NCBI RefSeq assembly: GCF_017876535.1
Contig: NZ_JAGIOF010000001.1
Location: 1,116,001-1,180,000, forward strand
DNA: 64,000 nt
Origin: Paeniglutamicibacter kerguelensis
GTDB lineage: Bacteria > Actinomycetota > Actinomycetes > Actinomycetales > Micrococcaceae
Direction: 5' to 3'
Shown here: one piece after another, positions 22,797 through 27,763 of the stretch
Layout of the letters: each line of letters starts with the position of its first letter
Position numbering within the stretch: the first letter of the stretch is position 1
Made by a program: the position numbers and the translations under genes
Notes under the pieces: model-generated
What the model was told of the DNA's origin: nothing
What the model saw: only the letters and a program-made list of their open reading frames with translations
Databases searched by the model: none

Positions 22797-23351
22797 TCAG
22801 CGTTCCGGCGGTGCCGCGTGCCTGCCGGGCTGCCCCGTTGCCCTGGGAGACTTCGTGGCCTCCGTTTCGCTGGCCGTCACCACGTACTTGCGCAGGAGCG
22901 GACGCCCCTGGTCGTCGTCCACGGCGATGACCCGCTCGTCCATCTCGAAGCCCGAGGCGCGTGTCGCGTGTGCCGCATTGGCGGCGGCGGGATCCGCGGC
23001 GTGGGCGCCGTGGGATCTGCCGGCGGCGTCCCGCGGTGCCAGTCCGTAGTAATCGAAGAGCCTGTCCTCGTCCGCGAGACTCAGCTCGGCCAGGGGATCG
23101 ATGTTCGGCGCGTGCCGCACCACGTCCTTGCCAAAGGCGACGTGGAGGATGCCCCGGGAGATTGCGGCATCGTTGAGCGGGACAATGCTTTCGGCTGTTC
23201 CAAAAAAGCCGGTGTGGACGGTGGCGAATCCGGGCTCCCCGGTTCTGGCGTCAAGCAGCAGGTGGCCAAGCCTGCCGATCCTTTCACCGACCGGGCCAAC
23301 AACGGTGGTTTCGGTTTCAAGTAGTTTGTGGAGTTCCTCGCGCCCAAGCAT
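22797..23351 (-). CDS. PRC-barrel domain protein
   Basis: 184 residues. The N-terminal half is a PRC barrel: VVGPVGERIGRLGHLLLDA, then GFATVHTGFFGTAESIVPL and HVAFGKDVVRHAPNID. This is followed by an Ala/His-rich linker (HGAHAADPAAANAAHATRA) and a C-terminal segment ending in YVVTASETEATKSP. PRC barrels bind RNA, quinones or polypeptides; in actinobacteria they are common stress-associated small proteins. It is paralogous to the product of 23571-23915, and both genes carry the same upstream element about 110 bases before the start. Confidence 0.85.
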   Translation of the reverse strand: MLGREELHKLLETETTVVGPVGERIGRLGHLLLDARTGEPGFATVHTGFFGTAESIVPLNDAAISRGILHVAFGKDVVRHAPNIDPLAELSLADEDRLFDYYGLAPRDAAGRSHGAHAADPAAANAAHATRASGFEMDERVIAVDDDQGRPLLRKYVVTASETEATKSPRATGQPGRHAAPPER

Positions 23352-23570: not shown

Positions 23571-23915
23571 CTACGGGCCGGCGCTCCCGGCACCTGGAGC
23601 GCCCCGCGAGTAGTACTGGTCAAGCAGGTGCTTGTCTTCGTCGGTCAGCGTGCCGGCGGGGTCTAGGGGCGGGGCGTGCCTGATTTTCTCCTTGCCGAAA
23701 GCCACATGCAGGTGGCCGTGGGCGATCTCGGCGCCGTCGAGGGAGACAAAGCACTCCTCGGCGCCGAAGAGCCCAAGATGCACGGTGACGAAGTCTGCGT
23801 CCCCGGTGCCGACGTCCATGAAGATGTTGCCCAGCGTGCCGATCTTTTCCCCCTCGGGGCCGTAGACGCTGCTTTTGGCCTGTTTCAATGCGTTCACGTA
23901 GCCGTGGCCGAGCAT
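23571..23915 (-). CDS. PRC-barrel domain protein
   Basis: 114 residues: SVYGPEGEKIGTLGNIFMDV, DFVTVHLGLFGAEECFVSL, HVAFGKEKIRHAPPLDPAG and DEDKHLLDQYYSRGA. It is a compact version of its neighbour at 22797-23351, lacking the long linker and C-terminal part. The start at 23915 begins MLGHGYVNALKQA; the longer frame upstream is the conserved leader DNA read in frame, not protein. It lies just downstream of the multicopper oxidase operon on the same strand. Confidence 0.85.
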   Translation of the reverse strand: MLGHGYVNALKQAKSSVYGPEGEKIGTLGNIFMDVGTGDADFVTVHLGLFGAEECFVSLDGAEIAHGHLHVAFGKEKIRHAPPLDPAGTLTDEDKHLLDQYYSRGAPGAGSAGP

Positions 23916-24024
23916 TGCGGTGTCCTTGCCGAATGGTCCTCCCCGGCCCGTCGATGAAACCGCGCGAGGCGGTTCCGCGGACGTGGCAAATGGCCGTCGG
24001 CAACGACTGCGCCGCGACATGTTT

Positions 24025-24070
24025 CGGGCATCCAAACCAAGCAAACCACCCACCCGGTTCCCGTTCAAGG
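24025..24070 (-). repeat. Upstream element, copy 2 (before PRC-barrel gene at 23571-23915)
   Basis: Read on the reverse strand: CTTGAACGGGAACCGGGTGG then GTGGTTTGCTTG and GGATGCCCG, 110 bases before the start codon. In this copy GGGAAC is followed 19 bases later by GTTT, close to a sigma-R/H-type spacing. Function inferred only from conservation and position. Confidence 0.6.
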
Positions 24071-24104: not shown

Positions 24105-25664
24105 TTAGTAGGCTTTGAGCTTCAGCTCCCGTGTGGCCAGGGTCTTGCCGGTGATCCAGTTGTTCCAGGCGATCTTCAGCGTGTAATCCCCGGCCTTTGG
24201 CGGGTGCAGCAGCACGTCGTAGCGTTCCGCCGCACCCATCGCCACAATGTGGGTGAATAGGTGTGCCTCCGGGTCCTCGTGCATGCTCGTCGGGATCGCC
24301 GGCGCCCCCTTGACCGCGGTGTGCCGGTAGGGGCGCCCGTCGTGGGCGATGAGTTCGGCGATGCGTGCGGGGTTGCCGTACTTGTCATGGAACGTGATTA
24401 CGTTGGGCAGGTAGTTGCCGTCCAGCAACCGCATGAGGCTCGGGGCCTGCTCCTTGCCGGGTACCCTGATGGGCAGCTCGGTGGGCGCCCATACGGCACC
24501 CTCGCGTTCCCTGCGCGAGTTCAGCAGGCCGCCGGTGATGTAGAAGTGCTGGGGTTCAAAGCGGTTGAGCCCCACGTCCTCACCGGACAGGCCGGCCGCG
24601 TGCCCCAGGTCGTGCCAGCGCGCGTCGACCGAATACATCATGATGAGCGACTCGGTCTCGATGTCGTACTCGGGTCCATCGCCGAAGGCCCTGCGGTTTT
24701 TGGGGGATGAGACCTCGTAGCCGGGCAAAACCATGGGATCGACGATCAGCGGGCCCAGCAACCCCATTTGCGCATGCAGCACCGTGTTGACGTGGCAGTG
24801 GTAGAAGTAGGTTCCCGCAGCGCCGTAGTTCGGGTCGTGCACTCGCCCGGGTTCGGGCTGCCACTGATAGGTGTAGTGGTCATCGATCTCGAACGAGGTG
24901 TGCCCCACCCCGTCGTTGCGCGGATCCGGTTCCATGCCGTGCCAGTGGATGGTATGCGGACCCATGCTGGGTTCGACCCGGGAATGGAAGATTTCCCCTT
25001 CCTTGGGCCGCAGCGTGGGCCCGGGGAAGCCGCGGCCGGAGGTCGGGGAGTGGAAAACCCACGTCTCGAACTCCGCCCCGTCGGGGAACGTCAGCTTTTT
25101 GTTTGCAACGTCCAGGTTGACGGACAGCTGCGGAGTCTGCCGGAACTGTGTTTCCGGGGTGTCCTGCTGCATTTGGTGCGAGGCGAAGTCGGCCTGGGAG
25201 TCATAGTCCCGGGGCTCGCCGTCGTCATCGTCGTCGGATGATGGCGGGGCGACGGTCGGCCGTGGCGACGGGGAGGTCGGCGCCGTGGACTGGGTTGGAC
25301 CTGTCGACGGCGCCGGATCGGTCGGGCTCGGTGCTGCCGTCGCGGTTGGCGACGGTGTCTTTGTTGGAGTAGGAGACGGCGACGGTGGCTTTGTCGCAGA
25401 CGGCGACGTAGTCGGTTTGGGAGTCGGCTTCGGCGTTGGTTTTGGGCTCGGCTTCGGCTTCTTGGCCGGCGCCTTGATGGACTTCTTCTTGGCGACCTTC
25501 TTCTTTGTCGTCGGCCCCGGCTCCTTGGCGCCTTTCACTTTTGCCTTTGCCTTGGTGTCTTTCGGTTTTGGCCGGCGCTTTTTCTTGGGCTTTTTCTTCG
25601 CCGTGTCGCGGCTGCCGCCGATCGCCACAGCGGTACCGAGCGACCCCCAGAATGTCGTACTCAT
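24105..25664 (-). CDS. Multicopper oxidase-like protein carrying only the N-terminal copper motifs
   Basis: 519 residues. The first 150 are a Lys/Pro-rich then Ser/Thr/Pro-rich low-complexity region (KKKPKKKRRPKPKDTKAKAK, later PKPTPKPTPKPTTSP) ending in an acidic SSDDDDDGE patch. Cupredoxin domain 1 follows with HTIHWHGME and GTYFYHCHVNTVLHAQMGL, equivalent to the HWHG and HSH copper motifs of multicopper oxidases. A second domain ends with AAERYDVLLHPPKAGDYTL. There is no third domain and no HxxHxH or C-terminal HCH motif; those are in the upstream gene. The stop of that gene is 4 bases from this ATG, so co-expression is certain. No obvious signal peptide. Probably one half of a heteromeric enzyme. 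Confidence 0.85.
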   Translation of the reverse strand: MSTTFWGSLGTAVAIGGSRDTAKKKPKKKRRPKPKDTKAKAKVKGAKEPGPTTKKKVAKKKSIKAPAKKPKPSPKPTPKPTPKPTTSPSATKPPSPSPTPTKTPSPTATAAPSPTDPAPSTGPTQSTAPTSPSPRPTVAPPSSDDDDDGEPRDYDSQADFASHQMQQDTPETQFRQTPQLSVNLDVANKKLTFPDGAEFETWVFHSPTSGRGFPGPTLRPKEGEIFHSRVEPSMGPHTIHWHGMEPDPRNDGVGHTSFEIDDHYTYQWQPEPGRVHDPNYGAAGTYFYHCHVNTVLHAQMGLLGPLIVDPMVLPGYEVSSPKNRRAFGDGPEYDIETESLIMMYSVDARWHDLGHAAGLSGEDVGLNRFEPQHFYITGGLLNSRREREGAVWAPTELPIRVPGKEQAPSLMRLLDGNYLPNVITFHDKYGNPARIAELIAHDGRPYRHTAVKGAPAIPTSMHEDPEAHLFTHIVAMGAAERYDVLLHPPKAGDYTLKIAWNNWITGKTLATRELKLKAY

Positions 25665-25668
25665 GGTC

Positions 25669-27114
25669 CTAGCCTCCACTCACCGGTGATTTGAGTTCCC
25701 AATGGGCGACAAGCCCGCCGGGGTACATGCCGCCGGCCGCGGTTTGCGACATCTCGGCGTGGCAGTGCATGGGGTACTTCCAGTCCTCGGTCCGGTTGTT
25801 CCAGACTTGGTCGGTGGCGTCAGGCGGCCGCTTCAAAGGGATGATGCAATCCTTGCGGTCCATCGGTTGGAGTTCCACGACGTCCTCCCACTGTTGGAGC
25901 ACCACGTGCCCCTCGTCATCCACGTGCCCATTTTTGCGCGGCCATTCGACGTTGTTACGTCGAACCGTCCAGAGATGGTTGCCGTGGAAATGGATCTGGT
26001 GGAAGGCAATCCCTGGATTGACCATCCGGACCGCCTGCCCGCCCCGGAGGGTGCCCAGCTCCACGTCCTCGCCAAAATCGCGGACGTCGACTTGCCGCGG
26101 GTAGCCGGACACCAGTGACTCCTCATGCGCCGCCCGGTTGATCGCAGGGTTCGGCGAATGGCCGAGGGCCTCGAAGCCGCTGCGGTCGTTGAGCAGGAAA
26201 TAGCGGGGCACTGCGGGGTCCGCCTCCGGATCGACGGTTCCGCCGGCCGCCTCGATGTTTGCCCACTTGGTGTCGACCGCATGAGTGACCCACAGCCACT
26301 GCCGTTCGAAGGCCATCTGATGCGGCGCCACCCGCCAGGCGTCCTCGGGGTCCAGCACAACCAGGGATCCGAAGAGTCCGAGCGCGCGCTGCACGGGGGA
26401 ATTCGTCGGATCATAGTAGATGTAGGTGCCTGCGCCAGGTGCGGCGAATTCCAGATATCCTTCCCCGCCCGGAGGAATCGGCCACGTGGTCTCGTCTTGG
26501 CCACCGGGCCCCGCCTGGGCAACGGTTAGCTGGTGTGTTCCGGAAAGCCCGTTGAACACGCGAAGCCGCACCGTCGATCCGGTTTCCGCGATGATGGTGC
26601 GTTGCGGGAAGTAGCTGGCCCAGTGGTTGCGCATGATCATGAACTGGCCGGAGTTAGCACCGTCCGGTCCGGCCGGCGTCGGCGTCCCGTTTGGGGGAAG
26701 CGCCGCCCCCAGTGGATACGTCCGTGATTGGACGACTTTCCCGTTTCTTGTAAAGATCTTCGGAACGATGCGCAATGACGGTTTGGCGTCCCGAAGTGCG
26801 GTTGGCTTGTCGCCGAAACCGCGCTGGTAGACCAGCGAATCGTCGACCATTTTTGCGTAGCCCTCATTGATGTAGAGGTCCAACACCCCGGGCAGCGGCA
26901 CTGCGGCTGCGCTCACCCGCCCACGGGCCCTGGCGGGAACTGCAGCGACGGCGGGGCGGTTGACGGCGGCCACGGCCGCGAGAACCCCGATACCCGCGGC
27001 CGCACCGAATTTCAGCGCGCCGGCCCGGTCGAGCGTTCCTTCATTTCCGTCGGGCCCGGTGGTGGAAGGACAGGGATTGTTGCCTTCTGTTGGAGAAACG
27101 TTTTCCTCAGGCAT
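25669..27114 (-). CDS. Multicopper oxidase-like protein carrying only the C-terminal copper motifs
   Basis: 481 residues. A hydrophobic N-terminal segment (LKFGAAAGIGVLAAVAAV) looks like an export signal or anchor. The first cupredoxin-like domain has lost its copper ligands: GTHQLTVAQAG stands where HWHG is expected, and GTYIYYDPTNSPVQRALGL where the HSH motif belongs. The last domain keeps FHQIHFHGNHLW (HxxHxH) and PMHCHAEMSQTAAGGM (HCH), but the second type-1 histidine (HCHxxxH) is Ser. Its stop lies 4 bases before the partner gene, and its start overlaps the stop of the gene upstream (ATGCCTGA). It probably forms a copper oxidase together with the product of 24105-25664. Confidence 0.85.
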   Translation of the reverse strand: MPEENVSPTEGNNPCPSTTGPDGNEGTLDRAGALKFGAAAGIGVLAAVAAVNRPAVAAVPARARGRVSAAAVPLPGVLDLYINEGYAKMVDDSLVYQRGFGDKPTALRDAKPSLRIVPKIFTRNGKVVQSRTYPLGAALPPNGTPTPAGPDGANSGQFMIMRNHWASYFPQRTIIAETGSTVRLRVFNGLSGTHQLTVAQAGPGGQDETTWPIPPGGEGYLEFAAPGAGTYIYYDPTNSPVQRALGLFGSLVVLDPEDAWRVAPHQMAFERQWLWVTHAVDTKWANIEAAGGTVDPEADPAVPRYFLLNDRSGFEALGHSPNPAINRAAHEESLVSGYPRQVDVRDFGEDVELGTLRGGQAVRMVNPGIAFHQIHFHGNHLWTVRRNNVEWPRKNGHVDDEGHVVLQQWEDVVELQPMDRKDCIIPLKRPPDATDQVWNNRTEDWKYPMHCHAEMSQTAAGGMYPGGLVAHWELKSPVSGG

Positions 27115-27763
27115 GACCGGCCTCCAGGAATCCGGTGCGCCAGGCCACGGCGGGCAATGGCAAGTCGATGGGTGCGCCGCCCGGGTTCGAGATGTCGTCA
27201 AAAAGGGCGGTGAAGGCCGTGGCATCGGAGGGGACCAGGAAACTGATGTTGGTTCGGAGCTCGGATCCCGGGGCCAACAGCCCGGGGACCAGGTCGTTCC
27301 ACCGGTTGACAACCAGCCAGGGCTGGCTGTTTCCCCGCAAGCGAAGCTGCCCGGGTGAAAACATTTGGTCCTCGTCGCTTTCATTGAAGACGTCGAGTTG
27401 GACAAGCACGTGGTCCCCGTAGGTCATGTTCACCGGTTGAAGCGACCTGCCGCCGGTCATCGGGTGGCCGGCATGGCCGCTCGCCGTGGCCGCATCGGCC
27501 GAGAGCCTGGACTGGCGTTCCGCCCTCGAGATCCGGGCCCTGCCGAAGCTGGTTTTCACGGTGGTGGTTCCGGGAGGGCCGTTGGCCGCGAATGCCACGG
27601 CCAATGCCGTGATCCCGCCCGCCCCTAGAACCAGCGAGGTTCCAAGGGTGATGCCAAGGGACCGCCGCGACAACAACGGCCGTTCCTCGGGGCCTTGTGG
27701 GGCCGGATCGGTCCCGTGGATTCGATGGCGGGCAGGACTGTGTTTTCCCCAAGCTGCGAGCAT
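27107..27763 (-). CDS. Membrane-anchored protein of the multicopper oxidase operon
   Basis: 218 residues. A basic N-terminus (RRSLGITLGTSLVLGAGG) leads into a single hydrophobic helix, so the rest should be outside the membrane. The exposed part contains MTYGDHVLVQLDVFNESDED, then SPGQLRLRGNSQPW and TNISFLVPSDATAFTALFDD, which reads like a beta-sandwich domain. I do not recognise the family. The gene is first in the operon and overlaps the next start by 8 bases, so it is probably an anchor, chaperone or copper-handling partner of the two oxidase subunits. Several His and Met residues (GHAGHPMTGG) could bind copper, which is a guess. Confidence 0.7.
   Translation of the reverse strand: MLAAWGKHSPARHRIHGTDPAPQGPEERPLLSRRSLGITLGTSLVLGAGGITALAVAFAANGPPGTTTVKTSFGRARISRAERQSRLSADAATASGHAGHPMTGGRSLQPVNMTYGDHVLVQLDVFNESDEDQMFSPGQLRLRGNSQPWLVVNRWNDLVPGLLAPGSELRTNISFLVPSDATAFTALFDDISNPGGAPIDLPLPAVAWRTGFLEAGHA

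Follow-up and report, generated by a model that had tools for sequence, protein, structure and literature searches.

Can the copper site of a multicopper oxidase be shared out between the products of two genes? The question is raised by a 64,000-nucleotide stretch of Paeniglutamicibacter kerguelensis DNA (contig NZ_JAGIOF010000001.1, positions 1,116,001 to 1,180,000; hereafter the window), in which three open reading frames (ORFs) lie on the minus strand in the order C-B-A. An earlier note had claimed that the copper motifs are split between two coupled genes, A (24105..25664, 519 aa) and B (25669..27114, 481 aa), and that their products form a heteromeric oxidase helped by the product of C (27107..27763, 218 aa); ORFs, motifs and junctions are all as described there. 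Taken as a whole, the data are best explained if A and B each form one half of a single secreted multicopper oxidase, a reading that can be held with good confidence, and the narrower proposal of an A-B heteromer with a shared trinuclear cluster, judged from sequence and modelling, is highly probable. The heteromer is strongly supported by pairing of the two genes across phyla, natural B-A fusions, four conserved trinuclear-site His in each partner and a ceruloplasmin-like model of a fused form; complex formation and copper geometry are what we infer from the computed conservation, gene order and pairing.

Copper ligands and gene pairing

Genes C and B overlap by 8 bases, and 4 bases separate the B stop from the A ATG. 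A GGAGG sequence within the last bases of C (27121..27125; all features given here are on the minus strand) stands 6 bases ahead of the B start, and another within the last bases of B (25673..25677) stands 8 bases ahead of the A start, the latter suggesting that translation of A is coupled to that of B. Pfam finds Cu-oxidase_3 in both A (39.3 bits) and B (34.5 bits). Ligand conservation was followed through 89 aligned B rows and 85 A rows, the latter comprising 77 far loci and 8 references (the window, Indioceanicola L009 and six database proteins). The far loci are the best 80 of 191 confirmed stretches from a scan of species genomes with the B alignment, many of them metagenome-assembled genomes, and the distant B homologues were reached through an alphaproteobacterial plasmid pair.

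Protein A has a Lys/Pro/Thr-rich N-terminus, a cupredoxin domain (A1) predicted to hold a complete type-1 (T1) copper site together with one half of the trinuclear site, and then a further domain (A2) with no HxH; its only HxH motifs are HTIHWHG (residue 237) and YHCHVNTVLHAQM (HCH at 289). Within the former, HTIHWH (24939..24956, residues 237-242) keeps its three His in 85/85 rows, which by analogy with solved oxidases are presumably a T1 His followed by two trinuclear-site His. The second motif, HCHVNTVLHAQM (24765..24800, residues 289-300), would supply two type-3 (T3) His, the T1 Cys, the T1 His and the axial Met, its H, C, H and H positions being kept in all 85 rows. Four trinuclear-site His are held by A1 throughout (85/85), and His237, Cys290 and His297 are invariant. 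The variant HTIHHH replaces HTIHWH in 41 of the 85 rows. The solved relatives closest to A are two-domain oxidases (3g5w and 2zwn) that resemble it in having T1 in the first domain, which aligns with A1 through PHTIHWHG and YHCHVN; a His and a Met of 3g5w fall in register with His297 and Met300, and a His of 2zwn with His297, all of which we take to be T1 ligands. Position 300 is M in 69 rows, L in 9, Y in 4, F in 2 and I in 1, a variability expected of the axial position, as the axial T1 residue is described as variable among multicopper blue proteins (passages of PMC3600357). From this conservation, the type-1 site is very likely complete in A.

In B, a degenerate Tat-like N-terminus is followed by a first cupredoxin domain from which the ligand motifs are missing (B1) and by a second (B2) that would carry the other half of the trinuclear site, with HQIHFHG (372) and HCHAEMS (450) being the only HxH motifs. 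The last two His of HQIHFH (25984..26001, residues 372-377) are the predicted trinuclear-site ligands and the first occupies a decayed T1 position; HCHAEMS (25747..25767, residues 450-456) would provide two T3 His and has Ser at the would-be T1 His position. The trinuclear-site His are H in 89, 88, 88 and 88 of the 89 rows, the two T3 His of HCHAEMS reaching 88/89 each with one gap. At the T1 positions, the first His is kept in 82/89 rows, the Cys is C in 68, D in 15, S in 3 and G in 2 with one gap, and the second His is S in 86, A in 2 and D in 1. Because the T1 residues of A are invariant, those of B have decayed and the trinuclear His of B are kept, T1 is assigned to A and B evidently supplies only its half of the cluster, the decay being family-wide and including the fused forms. 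The lost T1 His of B had been pointed out in the earlier note, and the replacement by S, A or D in 89/89 rows bears this out, but the complete T1 set in A was overlooked, and the suggestion that electrons enter through a damaged T1 site in B is rejected.

The eight trinuclear-site His that mark a multicopper oxidase are found, at the level of sequence, only in the A+B pair (four in A1, four in B2), and a T1 His-Cys-His set with a variable axial residue is found in A1. Protein A is predicted to be the electron-entry half together with half of the cluster, and B the other half. In the proposed mechanism, A1 would take an electron at the type-1 copper (A His237, Cys290, His297 and axial Met300), which would pass by a Cys-His path to the trinuclear cluster of four A1 and four B2 His, and the reduction of O2 to water would be confined to the A-B interface, with B1 and A2 serving as structural domains without ligands.

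The two genes are found together far beyond the window. A separate A ORF lies just downstream of B on the same strand in 77/80 far loci (the A of L062 is cut by a contig end), one locus (L091) has a single fused ORF, and in L052 and L100, which have no A, the contig ends 20 and 114 bases after B. These loci belong to Pseudomonadota, Nitrospirota, Thermodesulfobacteriota, Planctomycetota, Chloroflexota, Actinomycetota and Bacillota. In 395 Micrococcaceae genomes there are 61 strong B matches, a count from which weak matches and any further piece of a gene already counted were omitted (B places to E 8e-27, A places to 1e-23): 32 have a separate A ORF within 5 kb downstream, two of them being fragments of one gene, 23 form one ORF with A, and 6 do neither; the frame in G115:C270 is broken. 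Every one of the 39 Micrococcaceae genomes with B has A; a 40th, of the same genus as the window and lacking the pair, has only a 73-aa A remnant (G003:C2:381094-381279), a sign of loss. Among 15 genomes of the window's genus, the split form is present in 5/5 with a close homologue. The same pair occurs in other Micrococcaceae, and a view limited to that family is too narrow, as pairing extends to all the phyla named above; the alternative that homologues of each gene commonly stand alone is not seen, only 6/61 B and 4/58 A matches doing so. Judged from these genomes, the split is real and old. The lone B matches in G131, G169 and G181 are frames of 536-538 aa. The draft genome of Skermanella aerolata contains seven B-A pairs on seven contigs (L045-L051), and on plasmid NZ_CP084562.1 (L008:7998-10345) the annotation divides a fused form into two overlapping ORFs, its frame apparently being broken.

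Manganese and the haem peroxidase

The best guess for the substrate is Mn(II), alongside a MopA-type haem peroxidase, which we infer from the computed association of the pair with such peroxidases. In 11/80 far loci the pair is followed, on its own strand, by a gene for an animal-type haem peroxidase. One of these loci is that of Erythrobacter sp. SD-21 (L069), a strain in which the haem peroxidase MopA oxidizes Mn(II) (passages of PMC6247904). The SD-21 genome has one such peroxidase gene, a single 2151-aa frame that opens about 2 kb after A, and it is taken to be mopA because it is the only such gene in that genome. The peroxidase family is present in 14/14 chosen far genomes, in 7 of which the gene lies in the flank and in 7 not, versus 0/14 controls. 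The gap from pair to peroxidase domain, computed for 10 of these 14, is 1.4-2.7 kb in 7; in the other 3 it is 13, 23 and 89 kb, if the contigs are the same.

A similar association is seen within the Micrococcaceae, where a long MopA-like peroxidase occurs in 35/39 genomes with the oxidase, split or fused, versus 27/356 without it (Fisher 1e-28, kinship ignored). Seven genomes with short frames (357-677 aa) were set apart in this count, and G392, with a broken frame, was counted as long; with the short forms added, the figures become 37/39 versus 32/356. In the window's genus alone, the peroxidase is present in 5/5 genomes with the oxidase versus 1/10 without (p 0.002). Oxidase and peroxidase are at most 120 kb apart in 9 of the 16 Micrococcaceae genomes measurable on one contig, six of the nine belonging to one genus. 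The peroxidase of the window's own genome (contig C4, L155:6712-12699) is a MopA-like frame of 1996 aa with RTX repeats, five Big_5 Ig-like stretches and a CopC domain, and is 44% identical to the SD-21 peroxidase over 929 columns. Two of the three Bacillota loci (L123, Bacillus sp. EB01; L124, Paenibacillus sp. BSR1-1) have, downstream of their split pair, a gene that we take to be MnxG-like, the L124 protein having motifs III/IV ahead of I/II, and mntH/Nramp transporter genes lie near the pair on two plasmids. Manganese-oxidizing Arthrobacter isolates have also been reported (passages of PMC8533519).

From this genomic association, Mn(II) may be the main substrate, an assignment that remains tentative and falls a little short of an even chance. 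A chance of close to one half is likewise given to the same heteromer acting on something other than manganese, whether it oxidizes cuprous or ferrous ions as a means of metal tolerance or is a laccase-like phenol oxidase, with the peroxidase merely lying in the same gene islands. Three observations weigh against manganese: a long peroxidase occurs without the oxidase in the 27 Micrococcaceae genomes counted above; no peroxidase is seen in 69/80 far-locus flanks (flanks of at most 6 kb, often cut by contig ends); and a MauG-type di-haem gene lies near the pair in 9/80 far loci (L050, L051, L092, L096, L101, L106, L107, L108 and L117). The last two also favour a different substrate, as do the variation of flanking genes between groups and the window's conserved neighbours, which besides C are two PRC-barrel genes and housekeeping-type genes. 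Such a substrate is in turn opposed by the fact that, in two phyla, the pair strongly co-occurs with the MopA-type peroxidase and lies next to its gene, and by the MnxG-like and mntH/Nramp neighbours.

Domain packing and the proposed shared cluster

Both motif sets are present in 66 database proteins of at least 740 aa, and the order is B then A in 66/66. Three-domain laccases, CueO and CotA are single chains of three domains with the opposite motif order, and the B-then-A order of the fused forms is the reverse of that in ordinary multicopper oxidases. In a quick tree of 99 B rows, its root set by the choice of outgroup and 22 of its 95 inner branches drawn open, the far rows are split save L091, and the fused and split states need at least seven changes; because of these changes, fusion or fission has evidently recurred. 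The pair probably originated from a two-domain enzyme that was duplicated, each copy then keeping one half-site.

Packing was modelled with a natural fused relative (P0040) standing in for the window's two chains. The four domains of the model pack like four consecutive ceruloplasmin domains, and therefore B2 and A1 would meet at a ceruloplasmin-type interface; by length, model and ceruloplasmin span, the fused form has about four cupredoxin domains. It is unlikely, at perhaps one chance in four, that the A-B pair is instead part of a larger ring, for example of six cupredoxin-like domains completed by a further A, B or C chain. Two-domain and six-domain relatives do close a six-domain ring, A-B gives four domains, and C would add a beta sandwich; however, A2 and B1 are without HxH, so that no second cluster is expected, and the C model has no match in the 80 far loci.

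Several points weigh against the A-B heteromer with a shared cluster favoured here. The six-domain Foldseek matches have a TM score (query) of about 0.40-0.48, with rmsd of 8.6-16 Å over the whole chain, so that the case for the packing comes chiefly from the VIA alignment; the chain modelled is the fused relative and not the two of the window. The six Micrococcaceae B matches without an adjoining A are spread over five genomes, each with A elsewhere, four strong A matches have no adjoining B, and plasmid pTC1 of Paenarthrobacter aurescens TC1 (L007:6980-9221) has C and B with no adjacent A. These lone B and A matches, together with the full T1 set owned by A, would also fit separate action, in which A would transfer electrons through its T1 site and B would bind copper, with no shared cluster; this is very improbable, as the near-invariant trinuclear His of both partners would then be useless, gene order is conserved and natural fusions exist. 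That a single oxidase gene was broken by mutation or assembly error in this genome is rejected as having practically no chance, for although the fused form is common (23/61 Micrococcaceae B matches) and the plasmid fused copy looks frame-broken, the split is conserved in 5/5 same-genus holders and 77/80 far loci, and A and B each have their own start and Shine-Dalgarno-like motif.

Export, accessory genes and known oxidases

The N-terminal low-complexity region of A (25215..25601) is Lys/Pro/Thr-rich with no hydrophobic signal, and by a crude test a hydrophobic N-terminal stretch is present in 0/87 A-only database proteins. A Tat motif is matched by regular expression in 73/81 far B rows, and five of the eight motif-less rows had an empty test window; these scripts are crude and the far ORFs were read from stop to stop. 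Lacking a signal itself, A would be exported in a folded complex with B, relying on the Tat-like signal of its partner, and from the N-termini this joint export by Tat is slightly favoured. Counting against it, the Tat-like motif of the window B holds one Arg only (LDRAGALKFG), and among far A rows 22/77 have RRx[FLIVMA] near the N-terminus and 7/77 a hydrophobic stretch, indicating that A may not lack an export signal in every case.

Protein C is predicted to have a Tat-like signal or anchor (SRRSLG) and a DUF4352-type beta sandwich resembling the PCuAC copper chaperone, its DUF4352 match being sub-threshold in Pfam; RR is present in 16/16 C rows. The helper role proposed for C in the earlier note is plausible, given this signal and fold and the adjoining of C to B in 18/20 other Micrococcaceae loci, but it does not extend to the family, since the C model matches nothing in any of the 80 far loci and C is on that account placed outside the core of the system. 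In Micrococcaceae, C may help in copper loading or anchoring. Two small PRC-barrel genes lie 3' of A (23571-24068 and 22797-23351, minus strand) and recur in 4/20 other Micrococcaceae loci, every one of the same genus; they were set aside. Isocitrate lyase, malate synthase, DsbA-type, VapB-like, LytR_C and further genes that flank the pair in one other genus were likewise set aside, as unrelated. Secretin genes occur near 17/80 far loci.

In comparison with known systems, two-domain oxidases are encoded by one gene and form homotrimers with both half-sites in each chain and the cluster between domains of different chains, whereas here each gene has one half-site and A2 and B1 lack HxH. A canonical one-chain oxidase has all motifs in one chain with I/II before III/IV; here there are two genes, and the fused forms have III/IV first. 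Among bacterial six-domain oxidases of the MnxG type, the cluster is placed between the second and third domains in chain order, with T1 in domain 2 (passages of PMC3600357). MnxG (9bxa) ranks sixth among the Foldseek results, and the order III/IV before I/II is also found in the MnxG-like protein of L124; the MnxG type, however, has six domains in one chain, compared with four domains in two chains and T1 in domain 3 (B1-B2-A1-A2) here, and a T1 site in domain 2 is not found, the T1 His of B2 being replaced in all 89 rows. Ceruloplasmin and factors V/VIII share with the pair four consecutive domains that superpose on the fused model, but are eukaryotic with six domains in one chain, and the ceruloplasmin cluster lies between domains 1 and 6 (passages of PMC3600357). 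The Mnx complex, MnxGE3F3, is alike in being an oxidase that needs extra subunits, and differs in having MnxG as its sole multicopper oxidase chain, MnxE and MnxF being accessory (passages of PMC5622069). MopA of Erythrobacter SD-21, with its homologue in the window genome, is a genomic partner of the pair and a haem rather than a copper enzyme. A heteromeric oxidase with a shared cluster is by far the strongest reading; the pair would function as a multicopper oxidase, but by motif order, chain number, domain number and place of T1 it lies outside every one-chain class tested.

No description of a split, permuted, heteromeric or four-domain multicopper oxidase pair was found in the literature searched, most subscription papers lying outside it, and the B-A pair is unmentioned in the MopA passages of PMC6247904. 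Multicopper blue proteins are classed as two-, three- or six-domain (passages of PMC3600357), and a conserved four-domain, two-gene enzyme with reversed motif order fills a gap in this domain-number scheme. The pair would also exemplify, in nature, the sharing of one active site between duplicated subunits. The fullest form of the proposal, an ancient and widespread two-gene, four-domain oxidase with its cluster placed at the subunit interface after duplication, serving as the missing copper partner of MopA in Mn(II) oxidation in Erythrobacter SD-21 and soil Micrococcaceae among others, is possible but is put forward with some doubt. In SD-21 some 2 kb separate the pair from the sole peroxidase gene of this kind, and the pair therefore bears on what oxidizes Mn(II) in MopA-carrying bacteria.

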